The notes below the pieces were generated by a model. The model was not told the origin of the DNA, searched no databases, and saw only the letters and a list, made by a program, of their open reading frames with translations. Source: an uncultured Clostridia bacterium (GTDB lineage Bacteria; Bacillota; Clostridia; Oscillospirales; UBA644). From it: a stretch of DNA of 40,351 nt. Position numbers and translations under genes: made by a program. The stretch is from NCBI GenBank assembly GCA_944386295.1, contig CALXAO010000103.1, forward strand, positions 1-40,351. The letters run 5' to 3'. Below, one piece after another: positions 12,013-31,701 of this stretch. The stretch's first letter is position 1. Each line of letters starts with the position of its first letter.

Positions 12013-12090
<78 letters not shown>

Positions 12091-12123
12091 ATATATAAAA
12101 CCAATCCGAGAAGAATCTCCGAA

Positions 12124-12200
12124 TGGCGTGTCCGGAGGGACTCGAACCCCCAACCTACTGCTTAGAAGGCAGTTGCTCTATCCTGCTGAGCTACGGACAC
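12124..12200 (-). tRNA. tRNA-Arg (anticodon TCT)
   Basis: Minus-strand cloverleaf of 77 bases. Acceptor GTGTCCG pairs with CGGACAC, anticodon loop CTTCTAA sits in stem ACTGC/GCAGT, the T-loop GTTCGAGTC is normal, discriminator is G73 and CCA is encoded (12126-12124). It reads AGA and AGG. It is second in the operon. Confidence 0.96.
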
Positions 12201-12207
12201 ATAAAAA

Positions 12208-12281
12208 TGGAGCGGATGATGAGAATCGAACTCACACAATCAGCTTGGGAAGCTGATGTTCTACCACTAAACTACACCCGC
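12208..12281 (-). tRNA. tRNA-Gly (anticodon CCC)
   Basis: Minus-strand cloverleaf of 74 bases. Acceptor GCGGGTG pairs with CATCCGC (one G-T), anticodon loop TTCCCAA sits in stem TCAGC/GCTGA, the T-loop is GTTCGATTC and CCA is encoded (12210-12208). Anticodon CCC reads only GGG. It is first in the operon. Confidence 0.95.
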
Positions 12282-12979: not shown

Positions 12980-13017
12980 ACAAAACTCACAAACAGAAAA
13001 AAATTTGTCCAAAACAA

Positions 13018-13049
13018 AAGAACGGCAGGAAATATTTCCTGCCGTTCTT
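13018..13049 (-). terminator. 32-base perfect palindrome, terminator between convergent coat and thrS genes
   Basis: A 16-base arm (AAGAACGGCAGGAAAT) is followed directly by its exact reverse complement. On the minus strand it lies three bases after the thrS stop and is followed by TTGTTTTGG. On the plus strand the following TCAGTC is not T-rich. It is therefore best as the thrS terminator, but it could block readthrough from both sides. Confidence 0.85.
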
Positions 13050-13052
13050 CAG

Positions 13053-14822
13053 TCAATCGATAGTTTTATTCTGAATTTTCTGTTGAATTTCTTCCCAAAA
13101 CGCCTCCATCGTAAGACTGCCGCGATCACCCTCTTTTCGGCTCCGGACCGACACCGTGCCAGATTCCTGTTCCTTTTCCCCCAGAATTAACATATAGGGC
13201 ACCTTTTCCAATTGCGCTTCCCGAATTTTGTAGCCGATTTTCTCATTTCGGTCGTCCAATTCACAACGCAGGCCTCGTTCGGAGAGCACTCGATAAACAG
13301 AATCGGCATAATCCATCATTTTTTCACTAATAGGCAAAATCTTCACTTGTACCGGCGCTAGCCAAGTAGGAAATGCACCTGCATATTTTTCAATTAACAA
13401 TGCCAATGTCCGCTCGTAGCAACCGATCGAAGTACGGTGAATAATATATGGATTCTTTTTGCTTCCGTCTCGATCTACATATTCCATCCCAAACTTTTCG
13501 GCCAGCATCTGATCAATTTGAATTGTGATAAGCGTATCCTCTTTTCCGTGAACATTACGGATTTGAATGTCCAACTTTGGACCATAAAAAGCGGCTTCGC
13601 CGATCCCAACAGTATAGGGAATCTGCAGATGATCTAAAATACGTTGCATTGCTCCTTGCGCCTCAGCCCACTGTTCAGGCGTACCAATATATTTTTCCCG
13701 ATTTTTAGGATCCCACTGGGAAAAGCGATAGCTTACATCTTCATACAGCCCCAGAGTTTTTAGCATATAAGCAGTTAATTCCAAACAACTCTTAAATTCC
13801 GCTTCCAACTGCTCCGGCGTACACATCAAATGCCCTTCGGAAATTGTAAACTGCCGCACCCGAATCAATCCGTGCATTTCCCCAGAATCCTCGTTACGGA
13901 AAAGTGTGGAAGTTTCATTGTAACGAAGCGGCAAATCACGATAAGATCGGTTACGATTCAAATATGCCTGATACTGGAAAGGACAGGTCATCGGCCGGAG
14001 TGCCATAACCTCGTCGTCCTTTTCCGGATCTCCGATAACAAACATTCCATCCCGATAATGGTCCCAGTGCCCGGAAACTTTATACAAGTCACTTTTAGCC
14101 ATATACGGAGTTTTTGTTAACTGCCAGCCCCGCTGTTGCTCTGTATCCTCTACAAAACGCTGCAGAGTCTGAATAATCCGAGCACCTTTGGGAAGCAGAA
14201 TCGGCAAGCCCTGTCCAATCAATTCTGAAGTAGTAAACAATTCCAACTCTCGACCTAGTTTATTATGGTCCCGTTTCTTGGCCTCTTCCACAAACTGCAA
14301 ATAAGCCTCTAAATCGGCCTGACGAAAAAACGCAGTGCCATAAATCCGCTGGAGCATTTTATTTTTGCTATCCCCTCGCCAATAAGCGCCAGTACACTGG
14401 GTCAATTTAAATGCCTTGACCTTCTTGGTATAATTCACATGGGGGCCAGCACACAAGTCCACAAATTCTCCCTGTTTGTAAAACGAAAGTTCCGCATCTT
14501 CCGGAAGATCCCGAATCAACTCCAGCTTATAGGGTTCTTTCCGCTGGGTCATTAACTCCACTGCCTCCCGCCGAGACAGAACAAACCGCTCAATTTTTAA
14601 GTTCTCCGAAACAATCTTCTTCATTTCTTGCTCCAAAGAAATCAAAACTTCTGGAGTAATACTGATGTTCAGGTCAATATCATAATAAAATCCGTTTTCA
14701 ATAGCCGGACCAATAGCAAGTTTTGCCTGTGGATACAGGCGTTTGACAGCCTGGGCTAGGATATGAGACGCACTGTGTCTGAGACAGGCCAACTCTTCCG
14801 CACTTTTTACCTCTTCACTCAT
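13053..14822 (-). CDS. thrS: threonine--tRNA ligase lacking the TGS domain
   Basis: Class II synthetase charging tRNA-Thr. It begins directly with the editing domain (RHSASHILAQAVKRLYP, then VDLCAGPHV). The catalytic core has the zinc Cys in RPMTCPFQYQ, a His in GEMHGLIRVRQFT and a third His in IIHRTSIG. The anticodon-binding domain ends the protein. At 589 residues it is about 55 shorter than the usual enzyme because the N-terminal TGS domain is absent. The frame is open to 14843, directly at the stop of the DUF4340 gene. I prefer the ATG at 14822, which has GGAAG nine bases upstream. No T-box leader is present; it sits at the end of the Gld-like operon. Confidence 0.95.
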   Translation of the reverse strand: MSEEVKSAEELACLRHSASHILAQAVKRLYPQAKLAIGPAIENGFYYDIDLNISITPEVLISLEQEMKKIVSENLKIERFVLSRREAVELMTQRKEPYKLELIRDLPEDAELSFYKQGEFVDLCAGPHVNYTKKVKAFKLTQCTGAYWRGDSKNKMLQRIYGTAFFRQADLEAYLQFVEEAKKRDHNKLGRELELFTTSELIGQGLPILLPKGARIIQTLQRFVEDTEQQRGWQLTKTPYMAKSDLYKVSGHWDHYRDGMFVIGDPEKDDEVMALRPMTCPFQYQAYLNRNRSYRDLPLRYNETSTLFRNEDSGEMHGLIRVRQFTISEGHLMCTPEQLEAEFKSCLELTAYMLKTLGLYEDVSYRFSQWDPKNREKYIGTPEQWAEAQGAMQRILDHLQIPYTVGIGEAAFYGPKLDIQIRNVHGKEDTLITIQIDQMLAEKFGMEYVDRDGSKKNPYIIHRTSIGCYERTLALLIEKYAGAFPTWLAPVQVKILPISEKMMDYADSVYRVLSERGLRCELDDRNEKIGYKIREAQLEKVPYMLILGEKEQESGTVSVRSRKEGDRGSLTMEAFWEEIQQKIQNKTID

Positions 14823-14843
14823 TTCTATCTTCTTCCTTTCCAT

Positions 14844-16328
14844 TTACTGTACACTTTCGCCCGCCAAAACTTTGAACATGTCCCGAATCACTTTATCCAC
14901 AGAAGTTCGCAACACACTGAAATGCCCTTCACCACCCACCGAGACAAATAGATTCCGAGCGTCAATCTCGTAAAATTCCACTACAACATCCGCACCGTCA
15001 ACCATGTGGTAGGTAACACGCAGATACGGTTCCTTTGCGTTTTCCGGGAGATCCGCCAACCCATAGTGGCTGATTGCCACCAGATTTCCGTACAGTGTGC
15101 GGAAATCATCACTGTTTACCGTAATTCCATCACAAGTTACCAGCATTTTATCCTTGGAATCAGCATCCTGAAGTTGGAATGCATAGTTTTTTCCTTCATA
15201 GGTAAAAACCAGTTCTTCCACATTGTAAATATATTCGCCAAAAATCAACCGAGAACAATACCAGTCGGTTCCCTGGGACAAAAATGAAAAGGTTTCATCC
15301 GAAACTGTATACACTACCGGATAATCCTCATACATCAAATAGGTTTCATGTTCCACTGTCTGTCCGATATAATAAGTCACCGTAAACTCTTCGTACACAC
15401 CGGTAGGCTTGGTTGAGTCAAAATAAACATTGATTTGATCGTTATAATACTGGGGATTGGGATCCGCGTAAACCGAAATTTTGACCTTGACTGGATTATC
15501 CAGACCATACTTGGAATAATCTGCTTCGGTTACCCCAACCGCTTCTACTCGGGACGCATTCAGTCCAACCAGACCGGAAAGAATAGTATCAACGCTGGTG
15601 CGACTGGCACTGGCCGAAAAGGGCGATGTCAGTATCACACCTTCAAAATATAGGCCAGTTTTTTGCTCCTCTTCGGTTACTGTCCGTACACACATAGACT
15701 GATCCGAGCCTGTAATTTCCAGCTGGCGAAAATCAGTTTCATAATCAAAAAATTTATAAATTTTTTTATCGCAATAATCCGCTACAGAACGAAGATACCG
15801 CTCAGAAAACAATTTATTCATCAAATACACATCATCCTCGCCCTGAACACACATATAATAGCCGTTCTTGTTCAAGGTTTCATTTCCGATAGCAAAACGA
15901 TAATCTTCCCCTTTGTCGGTGTGAATAGTAATCACCGCCTGCGGCTCTGCCAACCCATATTCTGCCAAATCAGTACAGTCTGCACGGATCAACGTATCCA
16001 GTGTAACTGTAGCAACACTGTTGAACAGCCCTTTAGAAGACGCCTGCAACAAAGGAATCGCCTCAAAACCGTCGATTACCACGCCAAGATTGGAATCAAT
16101 CCGCACCTTATATTCGCCGTATAGATTTACAATATGAAGATATTCTACCCGATTGGGGTCAAACTGATACACCCGCAGCTTTTCATCTTCATATACAATA
16201 CCCACATCGGAAATCGAGGGAGGATCGACCGGCTCTTTCTCTTCAATTCCTATTATCCACAGAATTCCGCCTACCAAGCCACCGCAAAGGAGTAGCCCCA
16301 GCAAAATCCCAATCCATTTCTTTTTCAT
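14844..16328 (-). CDS. DUF4340 domain-containing membrane-anchored protein of a Gld-like ABC system
   Basis: The 494-residue protein has a single N-terminal membrane anchor (about residues 5-26, WIGILLGLLLCGGLVGGILW), then a large beta-rich extracytoplasmic region. DUF4340 signatures include YGLAEPQAVITI and YGLDNPVKVKI, a duplicated pattern, each in a strand-turn-strand unit. DUF4340 genes commonly follow GldG-type genes in Firmicutes and other phyla. The start ATG overlaps the gldG-like stop by four bases (ATGA), so translation is coupled. Its function is unknown; a role as extracellular partner of the transporter is inference. Confidence 0.85.
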   Translation of the reverse strand: MKKKWIGILLGLLLCGGLVGGILWIIGIEEKEPVDPPSISDVGIVYEDEKLRVYQFDPNRVEYLHIVNLYGEYKVRIDSNLGVVIDGFEAIPLLQASSKGLFNSVATVTLDTLIRADCTDLAEYGLAEPQAVITIHTDKGEDYRFAIGNETLNKNGYYMCVQGEDDVYLMNKLFSERYLRSVADYCDKKIYKFFDYETDFRQLEITGSDQSMCVRTVTEEEQKTGLYFEGVILTSPFSASASRTSVDTILSGLVGLNASRVEAVGVTEADYSKYGLDNPVKVKISVYADPNPQYYNDQINVYFDSTKPTGVYEEFTVTYYIGQTVEHETYLMYEDYPVVYTVSDETFSFLSQGTDWYCSRLIFGEYIYNVEELVFTYEGKNYAFQLQDADSKDKMLVTCDGITVNSDDFRTLYGNLVAISHYGLADLPENAKEPYLRVTYHMVDGADVVVEFYEIDARNLFVSVGGEGHFSVLRTSVDKVIRDMFKVLAGESVQ

Positions 16329-17932
16329 AGATATTTTCGCCTTCTCCAGATGACAATTCCGATTACTATAAACACCGCAGGAATAACCGCTACCGTGACT
16401 ACAAATTCTGTAATTAGCTGAGCATCATTTTCAAAGTGCAACGAATCGCTAAGCAAACTGACAGGAGAAATCATTATTGTAGGATCGTCAGCCTTTGCTA
16501 CCATAAACTGAAGCATTTGATACATATACTCTGCCGTAGCTTGATTTTCCCCATCTACATTGCTGATAAAATAATCGTTGACCAAGGAAGTCGAACCGAA
16601 TACCCCAACGGTGGAAGAATACAGATCCAACCCATCGCTACGGGTTTTAAACGCCATTACACCAACATCAAATGGGCCAGTCGTGTCTCCCGTTTCCTTT
16701 TCCACACGAGATAATGCATCCGCAGACAAGTTCGTACTTGCAGTATACCGAGAAAACGCCGAATCAAAAGTTTTCAACAACGTATACACCGCGATGGAAT
16801 CCTTGCTTTCAAACGTTTTAACCACACTCCGAGCTTTGCCCAGGCGCAATTGTAAATTATACCCGCCGGTTGCAAGATCACCGGTCATTGACATGGCATC
16901 GTCGGAATACTCCACCGAAAACAACGGTACCTTCTGAGTACTAAGAGTCTTACTATGATCTGGGTCAAAAATATTTTCAGTTCCAAACGCCATACCCCAT
17001 TCGGTACTCAAAAATGATTCCAATTTTGGATTCTCCCGCATATCCAAATCGCCGAACACCAAAAGGCTCTTCCCCAACTTCTCATCATTATCCAAAAAAT
17101 CACTGAGTTTCCGAATATCCTCATCACTGTATTGCCGAACAGGGTTACAAATCAAAAGAGTCTGATATTCTGCGGGCACATTATCATGTTCAGCCAAAAC
17201 AATGGATTCTACATCGAACCCGTTATCTTCCATAACTGTCTCAAAATAATTCAACGGTTCTTCACCATGACCGGAAACAATCCCAATTAACTGCATATCT
17301 TCTCTTGTCGTATAACGAATACCTGCGTTGAGACGGTTTTCCAAAACCACAGACTGAAGATCTTCAAACACCGAATTTCGTATATACCGATAACGTCCAG
17401 TCGCTGGCGAATAAATAATCAATACCGGTGCATCGTCCAATCCGTCGCTAACCGGAAGATTATTCCGTTCTGCAAAAAAACCGGGATTAAGAACATAGTC
17501 CACATAATGAACCGTCACATTTTGATTCAGTTCCCGATAACGATCCAGTGTTTCCACTACATATTTCACAGGAGCAACACCGGCACCTGCTTCCCCGCTA
17601 CTGTTAACCGTAACAGAACGCCAAGTATCCTCATCCCCCAAAACAATCAATTCCACTGGCTGATCCAATTCCCGGACAAACTGCTCGGTGGTTTTACTAA
17701 CCGTAAAAATCTGGGAAGATGTCAGATCCAGCTTTAGTGGAAACCGTGACGAAGCTAGGCCTACAAATACATTTAAACCAATTACAACAGCAATAAAAAC
17801 AATTGTAATCACCGTAGCAGTCGTTCCGTGTCGGAACTTCGCAGCAAAACTCTTCCGCTTCGCTTTTTTTAGTTCATCTGCCGCCTGCTGGGCAGAATCT
17901 CCCTGATATAGATCTAATTTATCTCGCTTCAT
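16325..17932 (-). CDS. GldG-family ABC transporter auxiliary protein
   Basis: About 535 residues: a basic cytoplasmic N-terminus, a membrane helix at about 40-62, a long extracytoplasmic domain, and a C-terminal helix (FVVTVAVIPAVFIVIGIVIW) followed by RRRKYL. The region KLDLTSSQIFTVSKTTEQF after the first helix is characteristic of the GldG/ABC_transp_aux family. IGIVSGHGEEPLNYF is the matching core motif. In Bacteroidetes GldG works with GldF and GldA in gliding; in Firmicutes no role is known to me. The ATG at 17932 is chosen over a GTG two codons upstream, because GAGGAG lies eight bases before it. Confidence 0.88.
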   Translation of the reverse strand: MKRDKLDLYQGDSAQQAADELKKAKRKSFAAKFRHGTTATVITIVFIAVVIGLNVFVGLASSRFPLKLDLTSSQIFTVSKTTEQFVRELDQPVELIVLGDEDTWRSVTVNSSGEAGAGVAPVKYVVETLDRYRELNQNVTVHYVDYVLNPGFFAERNNLPVSDGLDDAPVLIIYSPATGRYRYIRNSVFEDLQSVVLENRLNAGIRYTTREDMQLIGIVSGHGEEPLNYFETVMEDNGFDVESIVLAEHDNVPAEYQTLLICNPVRQYSDEDIRKLSDFLDNDEKLGKSLLVFGDLDMRENPKLESFLSTEWGMAFGTENIFDPDHSKTLSTQKVPLFSVEYSDDAMSMTGDLATGGYNLQLRLGKARSVVKTFESKDSIAVYTLLKTFDSAFSRYTASTNLSADALSRVEKETGDTTGPFDVGVMAFKTRSDGLDLYSSTVGVFGSTSLVNDYFISNVDGENQATAEYMYQMLQFMVAKADDPTIMISPVSLLSDSLHFENDAQLITEFVVTVAVIPAVFIVIGIVIWRRRKYL

Positions 17933-17944
17933 ATCCACACCTCC

Positions 17945-18649
17945 TCAGCGCCACCGGCGGCGTTCAATTATCCGAACAGATAAAAATAGAAACAGCGCCG
18001 TCAAACTGAGATAATAAATCACAGATGCAAGCGAAATTTCGCCGTTCATAAAATTAGTATATTCCAGAAAAATATTGAGTCGGGCAACCACAGTACGGAT
18101 TCCAGACGGCAAAAACACCGCCACAAAATCCGCCATCATCATCAAAAAAAACACCGCAAAGGTTCCAGCAGCCGCACCAATAGAACTTTCGGTCAAAGAA
18201 GAGACAAACAAGGCAATAGAAATCAGACAGGCTCCCAGCAACAATGTTCCCAAAAGATTGGCGCAAACCAAACCATAATCCGCTTTTCCAAACCAGTCAA
18301 TAATTACTACATAGATTAGGTTAAGCAGCGTCGCCGCTGTATAAACAATCATGCCCCCAAAAAATTTTCCCAAAACAAGAGCATTTAGTCCTAGAGGTGA
18401 AGTTAAAATCAATTGATCAGTTTTATGTTTTTTCTCCTCACTGAAAAAACGCATGGAAAGAACAGATACCACTATCATACTTACCAAAGTTAACCAAATG
18501 CCGAAATAACCGCCCATATAACTGGTACTGTTCAAAATTACAAATAAATTGAAAAACAATGCTGAAAGCAACGCATAAATCGCAAGAATAAAGTAACCGG
18601 ACGGATTTTTGAAAAACCCGATCAATTCTCGTTTTAAAATCGCACCCAT
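17945..18649 (-). CDS. ABC-2 type permease, GldF-like
   Basis: The 234-residue integral membrane protein has about six hydrophobic helices. It starts with the ABC-2 hallmark LKRELIGFFKNPSGYFILAIY. It carries MRFFSEEKKHKTDQLILTSP in the second loop, the coupling region that meets the ATPase. Length and pattern fit GldF-type permeases. The ATG directly follows the ATPase stop (TAAATG), and the gldG-like gene starts 12 bases after its stop. A substrate cannot be read from the sequence. Confidence 0.88.
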   Translation of the reverse strand: MGAILKRELIGFFKNPSGYFILAIYALLSALFFNLFVILNSTSYMGGYFGIWLTLVSMIVVSVLSMRFFSEEKKHKTDQLILTSPLGLNALVLGKFFGGMIVYTAATLLNLIYVVIIDWFGKADYGLVCANLLGTLLLGACLISIALFVSSLTESSIGAAAGTFAVFFLMMMADFVAVFLPSGIRTVVARLNIFLEYTNFMNGEISLASVIYYLSLTALFLFLSVRIIERRRWR

Positions 18650-19663
18650 TTACTTCTGCTCCTCCGTTTCAGTTGTTTCGGACGGTTCCGGCATGCCGGA
18701 CGTTTCTTCCAAACGGGCGGGGCCTTCTAAATCCGGAGTCTCCACCAATTGTAGAAAAATATCTTCTAAAGAAACGCCCACTGGAGTAATAACAAGAATA
18801 TACCAACCTCGCTTAGCACACTCCTCAAACAAAGCGCGGCGGATATCAGTATCTTTTTCTGCTTCTATCATAACATCTACTGTTCCCGGTTCCATACATC
18901 CCACATATTCTACATGAAGCATTCCCGGAATGGCGGAAAAAACAGGAACCACCTGATCCTCCGGAGCCGCCACTCGAACCGCATATCGGCTGTTTGCCGC
19001 CGCACTGCGAGCAAGATCTTCAGTCAAAGCATCCGTAACAATATGACCTTCATTAATGATAATCACACGTTCACAAACCGCCTGAATTTCCGAAAGAACA
19101 TGAGAGCTGAGAATTATGGTTCGGGTTTCACCCAAACGCTTAATCAGATTTCGGATTTCCACAATTTCCTTAGGGTCCAGTCCTACCGTCGGTTCATCCA
19201 GAATTAGAATCTCCGGATTGTTAATCAGGGCCTGAGCCAGCCCTACCCGCTGACGATACCCTTTGGAAAGGTTTTTAATCATCCGATGGTATACATGAGA
19301 AATCCGAACCACCTGACAAATATCAGCGATATGGGCCTGTCGGGGAAATTTGCATCCTTTGAGATTATAAACGAAATTTAGATATTCCCGCACTGTCATA
19401 TCCATGTACAAAGGCGGTACTTCCGGCAAATAGCCAATTTGCTGTTTGGCTTGTTTTGGAAATTCCAGCAGATCGTACCCGCCAATGGAAATGGTTCCCA
19501 CATTAGAAGAAATATAACCGGTCAGCATATTCATCGTGGTACTCTTTCCAGCGCCGTTCGGCCCTAAAAAGCCTACAATCTCGCCACCCTGAATAGAAAA
19601 AGAAATGTTATCCACGGCGGTCTTTTTTCCGTAACGTTTCGTCAATCCTCTGACTTCAATCAT
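18650..19663 (-). CDS. ABC transporter ATP-binding protein, GldA-like
   Basis: Cytoplasmic ATPase of the exporter. Motifs: Walker A GPNGAGKST at about residues 35-43, Q-loop GYLPEVPPLY, signature LSKGYRQRVGLAQAL, Walker B ILILDEPTVGLDP, and His in LSSHVLSEI. After the 220-residue nucleotide-binding domain there is a roughly 115-residue C-terminal extension ending in an acidic Glu/Thr-rich tail. This is longer than minimal ABC-2 ATPases but common in the GldA/drug-export subgroup. The ATG is 22 bases after the aspS stop, with AAAGGA ten bases upstream. Confidence 0.9.
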   Translation of the reverse strand: MIEVRGLTKRYGKKTAVDNISFSIQGGEIVGFLGPNGAGKSTTMNMLTGYISSNVGTISIGGYDLLEFPKQAKQQIGYLPEVPPLYMDMTVREYLNFVYNLKGCKFPRQAHIADICQVVRISHVYHRMIKNLSKGYRQRVGLAQALINNPEILILDEPTVGLDPKEIVEIRNLIKRLGETRTIILSSHVLSEIQAVCERVIIINEGHIVTDALTEDLARSAAANSRYAVRVAAPEDQVVPVFSAIPGMLHVEYVGCMEPGTVDVMIEAEKDTDIRRALFEECAKRGWYILVITPVGVSLEDIFLQLVETPDLEGPARLEETSGMPEPSETTETEEQK

Positions 19664-19685: not shown

Positions 19686-21461
19686 TTAATCGTGTTTTAC
19701 GACAATGCGCAACTCTTTCAACTGTGTTTCATCTACCGGAGCAGGACATTCGGTCATTAATTCCGAAGCATTCTGAACTTTTGGAAATGCAATTACATCC
19801 CGCAGACTTTCACATCCCAATAACTGCATCACCAGCCGGTCCAAACCGATTCCCATACCGCCGTGGGGCGGCGCTCCAAACCGAAAAGCATCCATTAAAA
19901 AGCCAAATTTCTCATAAGCCTCGCTATCGGAAAGTCCCAGAAGACGGAACATGCGTTTCTGCAAGACCGGATCAGTAATCCGAATAGAGCCGCTAGAAAG
20001 TTCCACCCCATTAAGAACAAGGTCATACGCCTTAGCCCGAACCTTAGCTTTGTCAGTTTCCAAATATTCCAGACATTCATCCAGCGGTGCGGTAAAAGGA
20101 TGATGCATCGCCACGTAAGTATTTGCTTCTTCATCGTATTCAAAAAAGGGAAACTCCACAATCCACACTAACTGATACCCAGTTAGGGGCAACGTCAGCC
20201 GCCGTGCAAGTTCAGTTCTGAGACTGCCAAGCTGTGCCAGAACATGGGCATTTGCTTTATCCGCTAAAATTAGAACAACGTCGCCTTCCCTGGCTTCCAT
20301 TCGATCTAAAAAACGGTTCATGGAGCCTTCGGTCAGGAATTTGGAAAAAGAAGAAGAAATCCCATCCGCCGTCCAACGAATCCAAGCAAGACCTTGTGCG
20401 CCAATGCCACGGACATACTCAGTCAATTTGTCCATTTCTTTTCGAGACAAAGAAGATGCGCCTTCAGGAACACGAATTCCCCGAACACTGCCACCGCCGG
20501 CCACCGCATCCGAAAACACTGAAAATCCGCAGTCAGGAACCAAGTCGGACAAATCAACCAACTCCAGTCCAAACCGCAGATCTGGTTTATCCGACCCAAA
20601 CCGCTCCATAGCCTCCGTATAAGTCAATCGTGGCAGGGGTAAAGGGATTTCCACACCCAATGCATCCCGAAAGACTCGCTGCATAAATTGTTCGCCGATT
20701 TGAAGAACATCTTCAGTATCTACAAAAGACATTTCCAAATCAATCTGGGTAAATTCCGGCTGCCGATCAGCACGAAGGTCTTCATCCCGGAAACATCGGG
20801 CAATCTGCATATAACGATCAAAACCGGCAACCATAGAAAGCTGCTTGTAAAGCTGCGGAGACTGAGGCAGGGCGTAAAATGCGCCTGGATGAATTCGACT
20901 TGGGACCAAGTAATCCCGCGCACCCTCTGGAGTAGATTTGATCAGCATGGGCGTTTCTAGCTCAATAAAACCGTTTTCGTCAAAAAAGTCCCGGGTAATT
21001 TTAGTAACCTTGTGCCGAAACAGAAGATTGTTCATCAAATCGGGCCGACGCAGATCCAGATAGCGATATTTTAACCGTAGTTCTTCGTTTGCATTAGAAT
21101 GTTCCACGATTTCAAAAGGCGGGGTTTCCGCCTTTCCCAACAATTGTAACCGGGAAACCAACAGCTCCACACCGCCGGTCTTCATTTTTTCATTGGCATC
21201 GCTGCCCCGCTCTCGTAGCATTCCGGAAGCTCCGATTACGTCTTCGGAACGCAGGGTATACGCAAAATCAAACAGCTCTTTGTCCACTGTTTCATCAAAT
21301 GTCAGTTGAAGCAGACCGGTCCGGTCCCGCAAAGTAATAAAAATCAAACCACCCAAAACCCGGCGGCGCTGAACCCAACCGAATACCGTAATCTGCTTAC
21401 CAGCATCCGCAACACGAAACTGTCCGCAATATGCCGTTCGTTTCATTCCATTCGTACCCAT
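19686..21461 (-). CDS. aspS: aspartate--tRNA ligase
   Basis: Class IIb synthetase. The 591-residue bacterial-type enzyme has an N-terminal OB-fold anticodon domain (GWVQRRRVLGGLIFITLRDRTG), class II motif 2 (FRDEDLRADRQPEFTQIDLEM) and the bacterial GAD insertion. Motif 3 is GGMGIGLDRLVM near the C-terminus. The ATG at 21461 has AAGGGAG eight bases upstream. A separate asnS is present in this window, so direct Asn-tRNA synthesis is possible; whether this AspRS is discriminating cannot be read. hisS-aspS is a common Firmicutes order. The Gld-like ABC operon follows with a 22-base gap. Confidence 0.96.
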   Translation of the reverse strand: MGTNGMKRTAYCGQFRVADAGKQITVFGWVQRRRVLGGLIFITLRDRTGLLQLTFDETVDKELFDFAYTLRSEDVIGASGMLRERGSDANEKMKTGGVELLVSRLQLLGKAETPPFEIVEHSNANEELRLKYRYLDLRRPDLMNNLLFRHKVTKITRDFFDENGFIELETPMLIKSTPEGARDYLVPSRIHPGAFYALPQSPQLYKQLSMVAGFDRYMQIARCFRDEDLRADRQPEFTQIDLEMSFVDTEDVLQIGEQFMQRVFRDALGVEIPLPLPRLTYTEAMERFGSDKPDLRFGLELVDLSDLVPDCGFSVFSDAVAGGGSVRGIRVPEGASSLSRKEMDKLTEYVRGIGAQGLAWIRWTADGISSSFSKFLTEGSMNRFLDRMEAREGDVVLILADKANAHVLAQLGSLRTELARRLTLPLTGYQLVWIVEFPFFEYDEEANTYVAMHHPFTAPLDECLEYLETDKAKVRAKAYDLVLNGVELSSGSIRITDPVLQKRMFRLLGLSDSEAYEKFGFLMDAFRFGAPPHGGMGIGLDRLVMQLLGCESLRDVIAFPKVQNASELMTECPAPVDETQLKELRIVVKHD

Positions 21462-21543: not shown

Positions 21544-22809
21544 TTATTCCACCAGCAACTCTTTCAGCCGAACCGGCAATTCTTCCGCCTTCACTTCCGT
21601 ACGGGTACCGTCCCGCATATTTCGAAGCACCAGCATTCCGCTGGCAATTTCATCCTCTCCAACCACTACAGTAAATGCGGCATTCAACTTATCGGCATAT
21701 TTCATCTGCGCTTTCAGAGAACGGCCCATCAAATCGGTTTCCGTTTTCCATCCGGCAGCCCGACAACGCATCGCCAGCGCACCGCAAAAACGAACCGCAG
21801 CCTCTCCCATAGACGCCAAATATAGATCTGGTCCCGCAGAAGGAACAAATTTTCCGTTTTGCTCCAGTACTGAAATCAAACGTTCTATTCCGGCTGCAAA
21901 CCCAAGACCGCAGATCTGCATTTTTGGATCTAATTCACGAACAAGACCATCATATCGACCGCCGCCAGCTAAAGCAAGTCCTGACTGAGGATCGGTAAAT
22001 TCAAACACTGTTCGAGTATAATAATCCAGCCCACGAACAATACGCGGATCAACTTGAAAAACAATACCATCCTGGGTCAGTCCCTGTTTGAGACTCTCAA
22101 AATGTTCCCGGCAGTCATTACAAATATAGTCTAAAATCAACGGCGCACTGGAGGCAATTTCCTTGCAGACCGGGCTTTTGCAGTCTAGAATCCGCATAGG
22201 ATTTCGTTTCAGCCTATCCTGACATGTCCCACACAGATCAACACTTCGACTTTCAAAATATGTCCGCAGAGCATCATGATATGTCTTACGACATTCCGGG
22301 CAACCAATAGAATTGATATGCAGCACTGCGTCTTTAATTTGCAGTTTTTGTAAAAAGGAACCCGCCAGTTCAATCACCTCTTTATCGGCAACAGGAGAAG
22401 CAGAGCCATACAGCTCCGCTCCAAACTGATGAAACTCCCGAAATCGACCGGCTTGGGGCTTCTCATACCGAAACGCGGAAATCAGATAAAACAGCTTCAG
22501 AGGAAGCAAACCTCCAAACAGGCCGTGTTCCAAGCAAACCCGGGCTACGGAAGCGGTTCCTTCCGGCCGCAAAGTAATGGAACGTTCTCCTTTATCCAAA
22601 AACGTATACATTTCTTTCTGAACAACATCCGTGGTATCCCCCATGCCCCGTTCAAACAGTTCCGTATACTCAAACGTGGGAAAACGGACTTCCCGGAAGC
22701 CAAAGGAGGCCGCTGTTTCTCGTGCCATCTGTTCCACCCATTGCCATTTGTAAGAATCTCCAGGAAGCACATCTCCGGTTCCTCTCGGCGCTTTCAGTTC
22801 CAATGCCAT
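21544..22809 (-). CDS. hisS: histidine--tRNA ligase
   Basis: Class II synthetase of 421 residues. Visible are the start APRGTGDVLP, motif 2 region TLRPEGTASVARV, the histidine motifs GLDYYTRTVFEF and GGGRYDGL, and the C-terminal anticodon-binding domain. The central insertion carries three Cys-x2-Cys pairs (CPEC, CGTC, CNDC), suggesting a structural zinc. The frame is open to 22854, but the ATG at 22809 gives the family start MALELKAPRGTGD, with AAAGGA about 11 bases upstream. No T-box motifs are seen in the 108-base gap to the upstream gene. Confidence 0.96.
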   Translation of the reverse strand: MALELKAPRGTGDVLPGDSYKWQWVEQMARETAASFGFREVRFPTFEYTELFERGMGDTTDVVQKEMYTFLDKGERSITLRPEGTASVARVCLEHGLFGGLLPLKLFYLISAFRYEKPQAGRFREFHQFGAELYGSASPVADKEVIELAGSFLQKLQIKDAVLHINSIGCPECRKTYHDALRTYFESRSVDLCGTCQDRLKRNPMRILDCKSPVCKEIASSAPLILDYICNDCREHFESLKQGLTQDGIVFQVDPRIVRGLDYYTRTVFEFTDPQSGLALAGGGRYDGLVRELDPKMQICGLGFAAGIERLISVLEQNGKFVPSAGPDLYLASMGEAAVRFCGALAMRCRAAGWKTETDLMGRSLKAQMKYADKLNAAFTVVVGEDEIASGMLVLRNMRDGTRTEVKAEELPVRLKELLVE

Positions 22810-22917
22810 AAACAATAAAATCCTTTCCCAATAATTTCCTGATCTATATAGCACAATGCACAGCAGGAGCGGCTCCCGGCTGGAAACCGTCCTGACTGTG
22901 ACAGATTAAACACATAT

Positions 22918-23343
22918 TTAAAATAAACGAGTAACGTCTTTTTGCTGAGGCAGATGGTACACCTCCCGCCAGGATAGGTCTCCCCGGTCCAACGCACAAA
23001 CCAAAACTTCTGCTGTTGCAATGTTTGTAGCAATTGGAACATTGTGCATATCGCACAGCCGCAAAAGCGTTTGTTCTGCATCTGACATTTGCTGTAATGC
23101 CGGATCACGAAAATACAGTACAAGATCAATCTCATCACAAGCAACTTTTGATGCTACCTGCTCAGCCCCGCCACTCTTCCCAGACAAAAAAAGGTAAACC
23201 TTCAAACCGGTTACATCCGCCACCATTTTTCCAGTAGCTGCTGTTGCAAACACCTGATGTTTGGACAAAATGCCACAATAAGCAATGCAAAACTGTACCA
23301 TCAGTTCTTTTTTTCGATCATTTGCCATCAATGCGATATTCAC
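22918..23343 (-). CDS. methylglyoxal synthase-like protein with lost catalytic residues
   Basis: The 141-residue protein matches MgsA end to end: NIALMANDRKKELMVQF at the start, LCDMHNVPIATNIATAEVL at the end of the core. MgsA normally turns dihydroxyacetone phosphate into methylglyoxal. Here key residues are changed. AHD is AND (Asn8), the phosphate-site GTTG is AATG, the catalytic-base GGD is GGA (Ala60), and the His segment PHEPD is MSDAE with one residue deleted. Asp80 in FRDP is kept. GTG at 23343 is the start, with GGAGG eight bases upstream and 19 bases after the minD-like stop. It may be an inactive or repurposed homologue; a sequencing error would not explain several changes. Confidence 0.85.
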   Translation of the reverse strand: MNIALMANDRKKELMVQFCIAYCGILSKHQVFATAATGKMVADVTGLKVYLFLSGKSGGAEQVASKVACDEIDLVLYFRDPALQQMSDAEQTLLRLCDMHNVPIATNIATAEVLVCALDRGDLSWREVYHLPQQKDVTRLF

Positions 23344-23362
23344 CGCAAGGCCCTCCTTAATT

Positions 23363-24109
23363 TTATTTAAAATGATAAAATTCTGTTTCTTTTCCTTCAA
23401 TTCGGCGGCTTATATTTTCAAACGCCCGACGGACTTTAGCCCTAGACACATCCATTAGCAAAACCCCTTCGTTTTGGGCAGCAATAATTCGATCATCGTC
23501 CGGAATCAGTCCCAACAACGGAAGACAAACACCGTCCATAATTTCATCAATGTTGGGAGCCGCACCTTTCCGAATCAAATCAGTCCGAATCCGATTTACC
23601 ACCAGACGAACCGAAGTCATACCTACAGAAAAAGCAAAGGCCGCCGTTTTTTCTCCGTCCGACACCGAAGTCGCATCCGGAGTAGCAACAATTATCAATT
23701 CAAAACGCATATCTGCCAAGCACCGTAATGCGGCACCGATTCCGGAAGGGCAGTCAATTAAAATGAAATCATACAAGGAGCGCTGCTCCAAAACAAAACG
23801 GCGCAGCGCGGAATAAAAATCAGATTCCGGTAGCTCCAAATGAAAGGGAGCAAACAGCAACGATAAATTTTCATGTTTCGGATGTGTACAAACAACCTGT
23901 TCTACAGAACATCGACCGGAAAAGAGATCCTCAGAGTCCAGAACTCGGTTCCGGCGCATTCCCAGCACAATATCCAAATTACACATTTCCACGTCGCCAT
24001 CTATGGCAAGCACCCGATGAAAGCGGGACAGGGCACCAGCAAGATTTGCTGTTAGCGTAGTTTTCCCAACACCGCCCTTGCCGGAAGCTATCAAGATAAC
24101 CCGACTCAT
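23363..24109 (-). CDS. minD: MinD-like ParA-family ATPase without membrane-targeting tail
   Basis: The 248-residue deviant Walker ATPase has GKGGVGKTT (about residues 10-18), switch I DGDVEMCNLDIVLG and switch II FILIDCPSGIGAAL. It aligns with MinD as far as SRAKVRRAFENISRRIEGK, where MinD has its NIARR-L-G segment. It then ends after eight residues (ETEFYHFK) without the amphipathic helix that anchors MinD to membrane. No minC or minE is in the window, and the next gene is the mgsA homologue. GGAGG lies nine bases before the ATG at 24109. Division-site placement is the family role, but without the tail and partners it is uncertain here. Confidence 0.85.
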   Translation of the reverse strand: MSRVILIASGKGGVGKTTLTANLAGALSRFHRVLAIDGDVEMCNLDIVLGMRRNRVLDSEDLFSGRCSVEQVVCTHPKHENLSLLFAPFHLELPESDFYSALRRFVLEQRSLYDFILIDCPSGIGAALRCLADMRFELIIVATPDATSVSDGEKTAAFAFSVGMTSVRLVVNRIRTDLIRKGAAPNIDEIMDGVCLPLLGLIPDDDRIIAAQNEGVLLMDVSRAKVRRAFENISRRIEGKETEFYHFK

Positions 24110-24156
24110 GCACCAATCCCTCCATTTCTGAATTCCGACTTAAAATATTACGTTTT

Positions 24157-24185
24157 ATTATAGCATACTTTCCAGATAAAATCAA
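24157..24185 (-). promoter_or_regulatory. sigma-A promoter of the minD-mgsA pair
   Basis: Minus strand: -35 TTGATT (24185-24180), 17-base spacer, -10 TATAAT (24162-24157) preceded by TGC (extended -10). The start is near 24150, giving a leader of about 40 bases. It shows that minD is transcribed separately from the mre operon; no strong terminator separates them. Confidence 0.85.
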
Positions 24186-24222
24186 GGACAGGATTGTAAA
24201 AAAATTTAAAACATACCATAGG

Positions 24223-26229
24223 TTAGGGAACCAGTTCCCCCGGAAGAGGCACACTGTCAAATGCATCTAAATTGGAAAAATAATAAGACAGTCCGTCTTT
24301 GACAACGGATGCTGTATAGGAATTTACATTCCGGCCGCCATTTTCAATTACCACCGCAAAGGCAATTTTCGGATTTTCCGCCGGAGCATATCCTACCATC
24401 AGCGCAGTAGGAAGGCCGTTAGATACTTCAGACGTTCCGGTTTTTACTGCAACTGAAACTACAGAAAAATCCAGAAAAGCACTATAGGCAGAGCCGCCCT
24501 GCTCAGTTACCATTTCCATTCCTCGCCGAACAATGTCCAACGTTTTCTGCGAAATCCCAGGAACAGAAAACACCGTGGAACTACTTTCCGTAACAGACTC
24601 ACCGGTTTCTCGGTTCAAAATCGATTTAATCAGATGGGGCTGCACACTGATGCCATTGTTGGCAACCGTAGCTACTGCAGAAAGAAGCTGAATAGGTGTT
24701 GCAGCATTATCGGTCTGCCCAATGGCTGCCAACAAATCTTCTCCACGATTCCACTCCCGTCCCTGAGCGTTTCGCCAAGATTCACAGGCAACAATTCCTG
24801 GCACTTCATTTTTTAGATCAATTCCCGTCAAAGAACCAAACCCCAGTTTCTTCGCATATTCCGCAAGCTTATCGCTGCCAATCTGACGTCCTATATCATA
24901 AAAAAAACAGTTACAGGATTTCTGCAGGGCCTGCGTAACATTAATGGTCCCGTGAGCAGTATAGTCAATACAGGAAGGCTGATACTGTTCATAATAAGTA
25001 TACTGGCCGGTACAGGTATACAAAGTGTTTTCAGTAATAACTCCCTCTTCCAAGCCGGCAATAGCCGTAACTATTTTATAGGTTGATCCTGGAGGGAAGG
25101 TTCCGGAAATTACCCGATTTACATAGGGATGGCCTTCATCCTTAGACAAAGTATCAAAATCTTCATAAAATGTAGACAAATTGTAATCCGGCCAAGAAGC
25201 CATCGAAAGAATTTCCCCGGTTTCAATATCCATAAAAATCGCCGCACCCGACTTTGCAGATGCTTCGCCGTTCTGCGCCCGGATGGAAGCAATCGTTTTT
25301 TCCAATGAATTCTCTGTAATTTCCTGCAAATTTTTATCCAGTGTTAAAATCACATCGTTTCCGGATTTAGCAGCATCGTCTTTCAAAATTCCCGTCACAG
25401 TTCCGGTAACATCTACCTCGGTATAGCGCGTTCCAGCTGTCCCACGCAGGTAGGATTCACAGATATTTTCAATCCCTGCCTTTCCGACAAGTTCGTTCAT
25501 TGAATATCCTTTTTCCACATAAGAATCCACCTCCGCAGAATCCATTTTTCCCAAATAGCCCAAAATATGCGATGCAAAATTCTCCTCAGTATAATTACGA
25601 GTGGACGCCATTGTTACTACAACGCCCCGAAGTTTGGACGCCCGCTCCCGAACTGCAGTAACTAAAGGAAGAGAAACATCTTCGGCAAAGGTATAAAAGG
25701 AGCCGCCGGAAGCTCGTTCAATCTCATACCGCACAGCAATTACATTCCGGGCCTGCTCCTTGGGAAGATCGGTCAGTTTATAATACTGAATCAGACTGTC
25801 CAACACTTGATCCGCCGTCTGATCAAGACTTCCGTCCCGTTTTTCCACAAAATTCCGAAAAACAGTAGAAAAATCAGTAGTTGTATAAAGAAAAGGTTGC
25901 TCAGCAGAAATAGGAAAAGTATCTCGATAATCTTCCCCATATTCTTCAAACAACCCTTCCAGAGCCGCAATTGTTCCATTTAGATCGGGACACGCGACTA
26001 GATTGATTTCCACTGAAAGTGAGGATGTATTTGTAACCAATGGTCGGCAATAACGGTCCAAAATTTCTCCCCGAACAGCCGGAAGAGTGCTCTTACTCAC
26101 CACCCGGTTCATGGACTGTTCCAGATAGGATGCTCCGTCAATCAGCTGAAGTTTAACCAAACGAAGCACGTATCCCGTGCAAATAGCCAACAAAATCCCA
26201 ATTACAAGAATTACACGACTTTTTTTCAT
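24223..26229 (-). CDS. mrdA: penicillin-binding protein 2, elongasome transpeptidase
   Basis: Class B PBP that cross-links lateral-wall peptidoglycan with RodA. The 668 residues include an N-terminal anchor (about 5-27), the dimerisation domain (AVRGEILDRYCRPLVTN at about 51-67) and the transpeptidase domain. Active-site motifs are S382-x-x-K (STYK), S438-C-N and K596-T-G. The ATG is one base after the mreD stop, with AAAGGAGG inside mreD. It is the last gene of the mreB-mreC-mreD-mrdA set. No rodA is adjacent, although clostridial clusters often carry one. Confidence 0.95.
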   Translation of the reverse strand: MKKSRVILVIGILLAICTGYVLRLVKLQLIDGASYLEQSMNRVVSKSTLPAVRGEILDRYCRPLVTNTSSLSVEINLVACPDLNGTIAALEGLFEEYGEDYRDTFPISAEQPFLYTTTDFSTVFRNFVEKRDGSLDQTADQVLDSLIQYYKLTDLPKEQARNVIAVRYEIERASGGSFYTFAEDVSLPLVTAVRERASKLRGVVVTMASTRNYTEENFASHILGYLGKMDSAEVDSYVEKGYSMNELVGKAGIENICESYLRGTAGTRYTEVDVTGTVTGILKDDAAKSGNDVILTLDKNLQEITENSLEKTIASIRAQNGEASAKSGAAIFMDIETGEILSMASWPDYNLSTFYEDFDTLSKDEGHPYVNRVISGTFPPGSTYKIVTAIAGLEEGVITENTLYTCTGQYTYYEQYQPSCIDYTAHGTINVTQALQKSCNCFFYDIGRQIGSDKLAEYAKKLGFGSLTGIDLKNEVPGIVACESWRNAQGREWNRGEDLLAAIGQTDNAATPIQLLSAVATVANNGISVQPHLIKSILNRETGESVTESSSTVFSVPGISQKTLDIVRRGMEMVTEQGGSAYSAFLDFSVVSVAVKTGTSEVSNGLPTALMVGYAPAENPKIAFAVVIENGGRNVNSYTASVVKDGLSYYFSNLDAFDSVPLPGELVP

Positions 26230-26230
26230 C

Positions 26231-26734
26231 TCAGCCTACCCTCCTTTGTCCAGGCAAACGCCGACCGTTCCGTATGCAACGTATAAAAAAATACAACAGA
26301 ATACAGGTCGGGAAATTCATAACCAGTTTCGGTAAAAGAATCGTTTGCGCAGCGAAAGTAAGCGGAACAAAAATCAGCATGCTTTCACATAAAAAAGCAA
26401 GCGCTTCGCACAACCCACAGGCAACTGTACAAGTCACTATACAGGTAAACACATTAGCAGACAAAACAGTTTTAGATAAAAAGCCCAAACTGTAACCAAA
26501 CACAAGAAATAAAATTCCATGTAGTCCAAACAGGCTACCTACGGAAAAATCACGCAGTAACCCGAAAATTATACCGTAAACGGCGCCAAACCTTTCCCCT
26601 TCCAGCAATGCGACACAACATACACCTGCCAGCAAATATCCGGGATTCAACCCACCAAATACCGGGCCTGTACAGCTTTCTAATAAAAAAAGCACAAAAA
26701 ACAATATATTGTAAATAATGATTCTATGTTTCAT
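26231..26734 (-). CDS. mreD: rod shape-determining protein MreD
   Basis: Small, very hydrophobic protein of 167 residues with about five membrane helices. It shows the family-like central motif GAVYGIIFGLLRDFSVGSLFGLHG, where Gly, Asp and Leu spacing is typical. It links MreC, MreB and the synthases in the elongasome membrane core. The ATG is 29 bases after the mreC stop. GGAGG precedes it by about 12 bases, a somewhat long spacing. Sequence identity in MreD is always low, so the call rests on length, topology and position. Confidence 0.92.
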   Translation of the reverse strand: MKHRIIIYNILFFVLFLLESCTGPVFGGLNPGYLLAGVCCVALLEGERFGAVYGIIFGLLRDFSVGSLFGLHGILFLVFGYSLGFLSKTVLSANVFTCIVTCTVACGLCEALAFLCESMLIFVPLTFAAQTILLPKLVMNFPTCILLYFFIRCIRNGRRLPGQRRVG

Positions 26735-26763
26735 GGAATATTAGGACCTCCGTCCCTTACCTC

Positions 26764-27603
26764 TTACTCTTCCAGCAAAGAAAAACTCGTAATCACCAAA
26801 ACCTCTTTCAACTGCTCAAAATCTGCCGCAGGCTGAAGAATCGCATATTGGGAAAGCCCATTCTGCTCATAGCCCAATTCCGCAATTGTCCCAAGCAGCA
26901 ACCCCTTCGGGTAAACCCCACCCAGACCGGACGTATATACTCGATCTCCCCGGTTAAGCACCGCATCCCGACTAAAATAAGAAACACGGCAAAGACTATT
27001 CCTGCGTAGCTCCAATGTACCCTCGGTCACACCAACATCCCCTGTGCTGAGAACCATTGCTCCAACTGAAATTTGAGGATCGGTAAAAGTCATGACGGTT
27101 GCCCAATTCAACCCCACATCCGAAACAATTCCAACCAGACCATCCTCGCAAATTACAACATCTTCTTTTTGAATCCCGACCGCTGTCCCTGCATTAATTC
27201 CAAAAGAAGACACCCAGCCATCTCTAGAAACAGATACGACATCAGCCGAAACATGTTCAAAACTATATTCCGTACTGACAATGGACAGCATTTTCCGGTA
27301 CCGTTCATTCTGCACCTGCATATAATAAAATTCACTTTGCTCTTTTTCCAGTTCCGCAATTCTAGCACGCAGTTCCCGGTTTTCCTCCTCTAACTGATCG
27401 TATTTGGAAAAAGTCTGAAAAAATCCGACCGCCTTGTTTTTTACCCAGGTAAATCCAGTCTGAATCGGAGTCACAATCATTCCAACCAGTTCTTTATGGG
27501 GCATTTTTCCGCCGTCTACCGCCAGATTCAGCATAAAACCCAGCAAAAAACAACACACCAACAGCAGTGCAATAAAAAACTTTCCGTGAAAAAAACCTCT
27601 CAT
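26764..27603 (-). CDS. mreC: rod shape-determining protein MreC
   Basis: The 279-residue bitopic protein has a membrane helix at about residues 8-28. A coiled coil follows (YDQLEEENRELRARIAELEKEQSEFYYMQ, about 70-100). The beta-barrel MreC core has FGINAGTAVGIQKEDVVI and VYTSGLGGVYPKGLLLGTI. It organises the elongasome outside the membrane. A TTG six codons upstream is open, but the ATG at 27603 has AAAGGG eight bases before it and is chosen. It starts 21 bases after mreB. Confidence 0.94.
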   Translation of the reverse strand: MRGFFHGKFFIALLLVCCFLLGFMLNLAVDGGKMPHKELVGMIVTPIQTGFTWVKNKAVGFFQTFSKYDQLEEENRELRARIAELEKEQSEFYYMQVQNERYRKMLSIVSTEYSFEHVSADVVSVSRDGWVSSFGINAGTAVGIQKEDVVICEDGLVGIVSDVGLNWATVMTFTDPQISVGAMVLSTGDVGVTEGTLELRRNSLCRVSYFSRDAVLNRGDRVYTSGLGGVYPKGLLLGTIAELGYEQNGLSQYAILQPAADFEQLKEVLVITSFSLLEE

Positions 27604-27624
27604 GCCCCTTGCCCTTTCCAATGC

Positions 27625-28638
27625 TTACGCTAGAATATTTTCCTGCTGAACCCCGTGCTTAATCCTTCCTTTATAATCCGGAGCGTTTCCCAAACCCGCA
27701 GCTACACTTTCCATAGGAGCCGCAGCATGAATGACTGCAATCCCCGTTTCTTTGGAAAGTAATTCTTCCCATCCATTGAGCAGACTGCCCCCACCCACCA
27801 GTGTAATACCGCTTTCAATAATATCAGAGGACATTTCCGGCGGAATTTTTTCCAAAGTCAAACGAATCTGATCCACTAAAAACCGAATCGACTCTCCCAT
27901 AGCTTCCCGAACATCATCGGTAGACAGAGCAACATTAATCGGAAGCCCCCGAACCAGATCCCGGCCACTGACAGTCATAAAATCGACCTGTCCATCGTCA
28001 TAAACCGATCCAATTGAAGTTTTCACTTCCTCTGCAGTGGATTCCCCAATTAAAATACTATGTGTACGGCGAATATAATTGATAATATCCCGGTCAAACT
28101 GATTTCCAGCACAGGTTGTTGAAGTGACAGAAACAATTCCTCCCAACGAAATCACGGCAATCTCCGTTGTTCCTCCGCCAATGTCTACAATCATTCGGCC
28201 CCGAGGTTCAAAAATAGACAGACCCGCCCCTAGAGCTCCGGCAATGGATTTTTCCAACACTGTTACCCGTTTCGCACCGGCTGCAATCACGGCATCTGAC
28301 ACCGCACGCCGTTCCACCGGAGTGGCCCGACAAGGAACTGAAACAGTAGCAATTACCGGAGAAAAACCGGTTTTAACCCTCCGAATATATTCCCGGAGCA
28401 TAATTACTATCTTTTCAAAATCGGCAACAACACCACCTATCATAGGGAAAGACGTCGCCACGGTATCCGGCGTGCGCCCCCACATTTTTTTTGCTTCCCG
28501 TCCTACAGCAACCAATTGCTTGCTGCCGTAAGTTTCCAGAGCCAGCACAGATGGTTCATTTAAAATAACACCTTTATTTCTTTTGTAAATCAGCGTATTA
28601 CACGTACCAATATCAATTCCGATTTCATTTGCACCCAT
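27625..28638 (-). CDS. mreB: rod shape-determining protein MreB
   Basis: Bacterial actin that directs lateral wall synthesis. The 337 residues show phosphate-1 motif IGIDIGTCNTLIY, phosphate-2 IVDIGGGTTEIAVIS, and adenosine motif GITLVGGGSLLNGWEELL. The protein has the usual length. The ATG lies 17 bases after the maf stop, too little for a separate promoter, so it is transcribed with the upstream two-component and maf genes. The family conserves IAGALGAGL, seen here as KSIAGALGAGLSI. Confidence 0.96.
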   Translation of the reverse strand: MGANEIGIDIGTCNTLIYKRNKGVILNEPSVLALETYGSKQLVAVGREAKKMWGRTPDTVATSFPMIGGVVADFEKIVIMLREYIRRVKTGFSPVIATVSVPCRATPVERRAVSDAVIAAGAKRVTVLEKSIAGALGAGLSIFEPRGRMIVDIGGGTTEIAVISLGGIVSVTSTTCAGNQFDRDIINYIRRTHSILIGESTAEEVKTSIGSVYDDGQVDFMTVSGRDLVRGLPINVALSTDDVREAMGESIRFLVDQIRLTLEKIPPEMSSDIIESGITLVGGGSLLNGWEELLSKETGIAVIHAAAPMESVAAGLGNAPDYKGRIKHGVQQENILA

Positions 28639-30988: not shown

Positions 30989-30991
30989 CGG

Positions 30992-31681: not shown

Positions 31682-31701
31682 ATGTGTTCCCTCCAACGTT
31701 C

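Follow-up and report, generated by a model that had tools for sequence, protein, structure and literature searches.

Among the closest described systems is the GldA-GldF-GldG ABC transporter of Flavobacterium. A four-gene module of this kind, encoding an ATPase, a permease, a GldG-type protein and a DUF4340 protein, was found on contig CALXAO010000103.1 of an uncultured Clostridia bacterium; the window is this whole 40-kb contig (40,351 nucleotides) of a 2.39-Mb draft genome that is 93% complete. The module probably serves the construction or upkeep of the cell surface and not cell movement. Three subunits were alike in kind in the two systems: the ATPase signature LSKGYRQR was identical, and both GldG subunits combine a membrane anchor with an ectodomain. 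The Clostridia module differed in its sub-cut-off family scores, its extra DUF4340 subunit, the absence of a type IX secretion system (T9SS) or gliding partner, and a presumably monoderm host lineage.

In the available text of PMC9127263, mutations of the ATPase site or the LSKGYRQR signature of F. johnsoniae lower the lipoproteins GldJ and GldK. The accessible part of PMC5682007 reports that gldG::Tn of F. psychrophilum lowers GldJ, GldK, GldN and SprT, and its authors call the molecular role of the Gld ABC transporter unknown.

A second likeness was to NosDFY, the nitrous-oxide reductase assembly system, which also pairs an ABC-2 core with an extracytoplasmic partner and for which transmission of work to a protein outside has been proposed. 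The sole PDB sequence match of GldF was NosY, a weak one (E 0.014). In the Clostridia module GldG and DUF4340 replace NosD, and no copper or N2O context was present among the neighbors, NosD itself not having been searched for. IFT52, OST48/Wbp1 and a site-1 protease subdomain share the GIFT fold with GldG residues 214-486, but they are eukaryotic and are not members of an ABC transporter. The archaeal arCOG01314 (DUF4350) is likewise a GldG-like ectodomain protein proposed to sit in an extracytoplasmic complex, predicted to act in secretion; its partners, as far as the available text of PMC5898192 goes, are a vWA protein and a COG0714 AAA+ ATPase rather than an ABC transporter.

The protein families are known already, as is the GIFT homology (Beatson and Ponting 2004, 'GIFT domains', as cited in the part of PMC11231238 available). 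The function of the Clostridia module appears undescribed: in agreement with an earlier note on this DNA, no description of its role was found in searches of the PubMed Central (PMC) literature, where DUF4340 is named in two of 5.39 million papers (PMC12283558 and PMC8088628).

Composition of the Module

Open frames, Pfam and NCBIfam gave the minus-strand order hisS - aspS - ATPase - permease - GldG - DUF4340 - thrS (Table 1). The ATPase gene begins 22 bases after aspS and abuts the permease gene (0 bases), 6 bases separate the permease and GldG genes, and the GldG and DUF4340 genes overlap by 4 bases (-4, ATGA). The gap between DUF4340 and thrS is 0 or 21 bases, depending on the thrS start codon. 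Both flanking junctions given in the earlier note, as well as the translational coupling it claimed, could be read directly from these spacings, and its Gld-like names for the ATPase, permease, GldG and DUF4340 proteins were borne out by Pfam and NCBIfam. Chance does not account for the four coding frames, since the same ordered block recurs in every relative set examined.

The ATPase keeps the Walker A motif GPNGAGKS, the signature LSKGYRQR, Walker B and the H-loop. Its best NCBIfam match was TIGR03522 GldA (310.2 bits, below the cut-off of 402.6), and that of the permease, which has six transmembrane (TM) segments by hydropathy, was TIGR03518 GldF (93 bits, below 288.5). The GldG protein scored 52.1 bits to Pfam ABC_transp_aux (PF09822; cut-off 34.7) and 34.1 bits to NCBIfam TIGR03521 (cut-off 389.85). 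With a GldA-like ATPase, a GldF-like permease and a PF09822 protein in one operon, active-site motifs intact, the module falls among the Gld-type (ABC_transp_aux) ABC-2 transporters in the broad sense.

The GldG start is likely the ATG at 17932, behind a good GAGGAGG site. The protein is laid out as a TM segment (43-61), an N-terminal DUF7088-like domain, a GIFT domain (214-486) and a second TM segment (512-530), with a mean pLDDT of 78.8 for the predicted model. In the predicted fold, residues 214-486 matched IFT52 with Z 22.3 (root-mean-square deviation 2.7 over 214 residues), oligosaccharyltransferase (OST) subunits with Z about 20, and site-1 protease with Z 16-17; a profile comparison supported the IFT52 relation (E 6.7e-08). 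By this model GldG is a GIFT-domain protein. A GHGE motif was considered as its active site: H224 and E226 were invariant in 30 sequences, but in 180 sequences the H was kept in only 117 and the E in 140, and because the motif is so poorly kept no active site is claimed. Residues N56, D71, E200, P266, P520 and R534 were conserved at 97-99% in the 180 sequences.

The DUF4340 protein scored 121.8 bits to PF14238 (cut-off 25). It has one N-terminal TM segment by hydropathy (residues 8-26) and GldG has two, leaving the large outside domains that had been proposed for both. The DUF4340 ectodomain comprises three tandem repeats (residues about 45-185, 196-358 and 366-490) in which the strand-helix order recurs. 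Profile comparison gave 98.2% for R1-R2 (E 4e-14), 89.3% for R1-R3 (E 2e-6) and only 4.8% for R2-R3, and six reversed controls all gave 1.3% or less. The predicted model (mean pLDDT 88.8) found only low-probability Foldseek matches among solved folds, and VIA gave a best Z of 6.2, to a thioesterase-like protein; because these matches were low, no fold is claimed. Kinship with YycH (PF07435) was rejected: the fold match was weak (Z 4.3, within the common background), and the profile comparison with 15 YycH sequences was negative (hhalign probability 0.9%, 39 columns).

Two rearrangements among relatives point to one physical complex. In three loci GldF and GldG are fused in one frame of 684-697 amino acids, each with a match to the complete GldF profile and a GldG match behind it. 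Tandem gldG paralogues stand behind gldF in eight Ruminococcus-like loci. In seven of the eight both GldGs are full-length (497-575 amino acids, two TM segments each, about 22-29% identical in their best BLAST segments), the eighth (L137) being cut by the contig end, and in the seven complete loci the DUF4340 protein that follows is enlarged to 705-1001 amino acids. The tandem pairs may represent a former GldG homodimer that became a heterodimer. Composition, topology, ATPase motifs, predicted GldG fold, co-inheritance and gene fusion were all read from sequence, and at that level it is well supported that the four proteins form one membrane complex.

Distribution and Co-inheritance

The class sample comprised 146 genomes (95% completeness requested), the window's genome included. 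DUF4340 was present in 68 of these genomes and PF09822 in 74, in 71 of them over the cut-off. Both families occurred in 67 genomes and neither in 71; DUF4340 alone was found in one (G058) and PF09822 alone in seven. Among the seven, two (G094, G142) had weak matches in large proteins, one (G086) carried GldA-GldF-GldG alone, and three (G132, G151, G167) belonged to one genus of family f69. The gene behind gldG in f69 was considered as a hidden DUF4340; it encodes a conserved hydrophobic, probably multi-spanning membrane protein without a Pfam match, and the candidate was rejected. In G056 gldG was split into two frames (L143:6280-7703) with no adjoining DUF4340, a decaying or mis-assembled block.

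The 77 class loci held 72 DUF4340 genes, 69 of them directly behind gldG: 62 after an intact GldA-GldF-GldG set, three after a GldF-GldG fusion, and four where the block meets a contig end or gldA was uncalled. Three stood alone. One stand-alone gene (L142) was flanked by an acyl-ACP thioesterase gene and DUF5711, and another (L150) lay behind two BPD-type permease genes.

Of the 40 near-set genomes, which include the window's own, 35 had DUF4340; within the window's family all 20 did. Among the window and 36 fetched loci, gldF was present in 36, gldG and DUF4340 followed in all 36, and gldA was called in 34. A second sample of 80 named loci was chosen by GldF similarity and reduced to 76 by removal of four duplicate fetched contigs; gldG and DUF4340 stood behind gldF in 71 of the 76, four ended at a contig edge, and L137 was likewise cut. 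The four-gene module is widespread in Clostridia and not peculiar to the window locus. As a system it is conserved and has no name, and it occurs in almost half of the sampled class genomes, herbivore-gut lineages included. The 'Clostridium' host named in the earlier note was too narrow, the nearest named relatives being uncultured Clostridia/Oscillospiraceae metagenome-assembled genomes (MAGs), mostly from the herbivore gut.

Neighborhood and Descent

In 18 class loci, from 10 families, aspS was at or one gene from gldA, usually with hisS before it. The adjacency also occurred in the window's family and seven other families of its order, giving 18 families with aspS beside gldA, the window's included. 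Same-strand genes directly upstream of gldA within 250 bases in the class loci were aspS-type synthetases in 14 of 46 cases. In the near-set loci aspS lay within three genes 5' in 23, and thrS lay 3' in the same orientation in 12 and in the opposite orientation in three. Pairwise distances over 40 distinct loci gave a Mantel r of 0.83 for AspS-GldF and 0.87 for AspS-GldG, values that none of 2000 permutations reached. By these correlations the block has largely descended vertically with aspS.

Because aspS adjoins gldA in 18 families, that junction is ancestral; the thrS junction is a recent, variable newcomer. The position between aspS and thrS given in the earlier note holds, and the insertion implied by 'embedded' does not, only the thrS junction being variable. 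Ruminococcus-like named loci had other neighbors, either rbfA-nrnA-ribF-gltX or an Rnf operon upstream, and since the same block recurs with different neighbors it moves as a unit. In some Ruminococcus-like MAGs (L067, L112, L134 and similar) the Rnf operon was directly upstream of gldA. A 94-amino-acid protein without a Pfam match was encoded directly 3' of DUF4340 in Ruminococcus-like loci (L118:4067-4351; cluster c10, 24 members). A mobile-element origin was rejected: one of 72,556 plasmid records, a 305-kb Subdoligranulum record, held a relative that is genuine but remote (E 1e-19, 25% identity).

In the window's family the module closes an mreBCD-PBP2-minD-hisS-aspS block, and the order PBP2-minD-MGS-hisS-aspS was kept in same-family relatives. 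Elsewhere, in 16 loci of eight families, DUF5711 followed DUF4340 downstream at a distance of at most two genes, with CvpA next in 10. Across the class sample (counts given as both/DUF4340 only/other only/neither; family-level permutation throughout, SpoIVA by Fisher test only) DUF5711 was associated with DUF4340 (60/8/44/34, odds ratio [OR] 5.8, family-level p 0.005). In two genomes of f69, which lacks DUF4340, DUF5711 still lay two genes behind gldG. DUF5711 was named in none of the best 15 of 467 papers matched by a DUF5711/CvpA search of the PMC literature. No association with DUF4340 was found for YycH in the 146 genomes; MreC had a weak genome-level link (p 0.036) and none at family level (r 0.06).

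Proposed Function

The best explanation, to which we give a probability of about 0.45, is a growth-linked housekeeping envelope machine that acts on surface (lipo)proteins or wall machinery through the GldG and DUF4340 ectodomains. The Flavobacterium GldA and gldG mutants are, by analogy, the strongest functional clue. The envelope is the best general guess because of the mreBCD-PBP2-minD-hisS-aspS block upstream and, elsewhere, DUF5711-CvpA downstream. A DUF4340 gene region was scored essential in Verrucomicrobium spinosum in the available portion of PMC12283558, and Athe_2368 of C. bescii, a PF09822 protein, changes with growth substrate according to the accessible text of PMC5865380.

In such a machine a GldA2-GldF2 ABC-2 core would carry two GldG GIFT ectodomains and a three-repeat DUF4340 ectodomain outside the membrane, a putative stoichiometry. 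ATP binding and hydrolysis would move the ectodomains, which in growing cells may fold surface (lipo)proteins or a cell-wall intermediate, release them or set them in position. The spacing of the genes suggests co-transcription with the aminoacyl-tRNA synthetase genes. A more specific proposal, offered tentatively, is ATP-driven mechanotransmission: powered by GldA-GldF, a GldG dimer and the three-repeat DUF4340 arm would fold surface (lipo)proteins or the wall-elongation complex or set them in place. If true, it would give the Gld ABC family a general non-motility function and would explain why loss of GldAFG in Flavobacterium lowers several unrelated surface proteins. In the Flavobacterium mutants gliding disappears along with surface lipoproteins; the Clostridia version has no gliding or T9SS machine around it, and its basic activity could be studied free of that confusion.

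Several observations weigh against a housekeeping envelope machine. The module was absent from 78 of the 146 class genomes and is therefore dispensable in many lineages. The mre linkage was seen only in the window's family and its close relatives, and the aspS and hisS neighbors say 'constitutive', not 'envelope'. DUF5711 is frequent in general (104 of 146 genomes), was missing from 8 of the 68 DUF4340 genomes, and lies unlinked on another contig in the window's own genome. The Flavobacterium evidence was obtained in a diderm whose partner set differs, mechanotransmission draws on the weak GldF-NosY match and on NosDFY work, and the PMC search found no substrate or phenotype for any Clostridia.

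Alternative Explanations

The readings were ranked, from most to least probable, as surface (lipo)protein or wall work, polymer or lipid export, sporulation, efflux, and gliding. Gliding is excluded, and a sporulation-only role or drug efflux is unlikely.

Polymer or lipid export, in which GldF would move a glycan, a lipid-linked precursor or a teichoic-acid-like polymer to be received outside by GldG and DUF4340, is doubtful, though the likeliest of the alternatives. By Pfam GldF is an ABC-2 permease, and polymer exporters belong to that class; OST subunits working on glycan transfer share the GIFT fold of GldG, and PBP2 and mre genes are neighbors. Neither of the expected markers was associated with DUF4340, however: PF04464 (wall teichoic acid) gave 17/51/27/51 (p 0.28) and SLH 49/19/46/32 (p 0.12), and neither was matched in the genome of the window (93% complete), so that the links to wall teichoic acid and the S-layer raised in the earlier note found no backing. 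No glycosyltransferase, flippase or polymer-synthesis family occurred among the 25 commonest of 90 or the 25 commonest of 46 neighbor families. No neighbor favors the export of a surface polymer or lipid proposed in that note, and only its envelope aspect stands as the best general guess.

A sporulation-associated machine, for engulfment or for cortex or coat assembly, is improbable. DUF4340 was commoner with Spo0A (64/4/58/20, OR 5.5, family-level permutation p 0.005) and with SpoIVA over the cut-off (58/10/52/26, OR 2.9, p 0.012), both of which occur in the window's own genome. These associations were computed without a species tree, and 52 of 110 SpoIVA genomes lacked the module. Because 10 of the 68 DUF4340 carriers, in five families (f29, f33, f42, f53, f56), were without SpoIVA and four without Spo0A_C, the module is not confined to endospore formers; the suggested sporulation link amounts to a mild association. 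The same two sets of 25 commonest neighbor families included no sporulation family.

A DrrA- or MutE-like ABC-2 pump for drug or peptide resistance is more improbable still. The ATPase had secondary NCBIfam matches to drrA (206 bits) and a lantibiotic ABC ATPase (183 bits) and the permease to MutE (21.5 bits), all under cut-off, but GldA and GldF were the best matches for the two core subunits, and old vertical descent beside aspS, with only the one plasmid record, is unlike mobile resistance. To our knowledge, immunity pumps are without GIFT and DUF4340 partners.

Membership in Bacteroidota-type gliding or T9SS, suggested by GldA, GldF and GldG being the best NCBIfam names, is refuted at family level by their scores under the equivalog cut-offs and by the absence of GldM (TIGR03517), which none of the 146 class genomes carried over the cut-off (0 matches in the own genome, two weak sub-threshold matches elsewhere), as expected from the earlier statement that no gliding machine exists here.

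Locus Layout and Other Features

Table 1. Coordinates of the module, its neighbors and related loci (window positions unless a locus is named)
Feature	Position	Strand	Remark
GldA-type ABC ATPase, 337 amino acids	18650-19663	minus	Pfam ABC_tran; catalytic motifs all present
GldF-type ABC-2 permease, 234 amino acids, six TM	17945-18649	minus	Pfam ABC2_membrane_3
GldG-type protein, 537 amino acids, GTG start called	16325-17938	minus	ABC_transp_aux
DUF4340 protein, 494 amino acids	14844-16328	minus	Pfam DUF4340 (PF14238)
aspS	19686-21461	minus	conserved upstream neighbor, 22 bases from gldA
hisS	21544-22854	minus	conserved 5' of aspS
mreB, mreC, mreD, PBP2-type transpeptidase, MinD-type ATPase, MGS-domain gene	22918-28638	minus	cell-shape/division block, upstream
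thrS	13053-14843	minus	downstream neighbor; variable among relatives
Terminator-like hairpin, 15-bp stem	13017-13050	minus	directly 3' of thrS
GldF-GldG fusions	L192:7809-9902, L205:1163-3256, L214:5845-7899
Tandem gldG	L091, L095, L101, L107, L116, L128, L130, L137		Ruminococcus-like
Stand-alone DUF4340	L142:7206-8576, L150:7362-8744, L193:7851-9233
Conserved post-gldG membrane protein, f69	L138:7758-8819, L139:5912-6964, L140:8000-9016		DUF4340 missing there
DUF5711 then CvpA-type gene	L144, L145, L158, L163, L165, L171, L181, L196, L207, L208		downstream of Gld block

The hairpin behind thrS is likely the transcript end; its stem was the longest of 15 terminator-like sites in the window. 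Terminator-like sites were at shuffle level (15 vs 13.1), as were sigma-70 sites (20 vs 19.4), and no internal promoters could be read. Rfam returned three tRNAs and no T-box at the gathering threshold. The tRNAs (tRNA-His, tRNA-Arg, tRNA-Gly) form a cluster at 12013-12281. A further class II D/K/N-type synthetase gene lies at 32115-33509, making four synthetase genes in the contig, and a histidine kinase and response-regulator pair lies at 29225-31696, upstream of maf and mreB.

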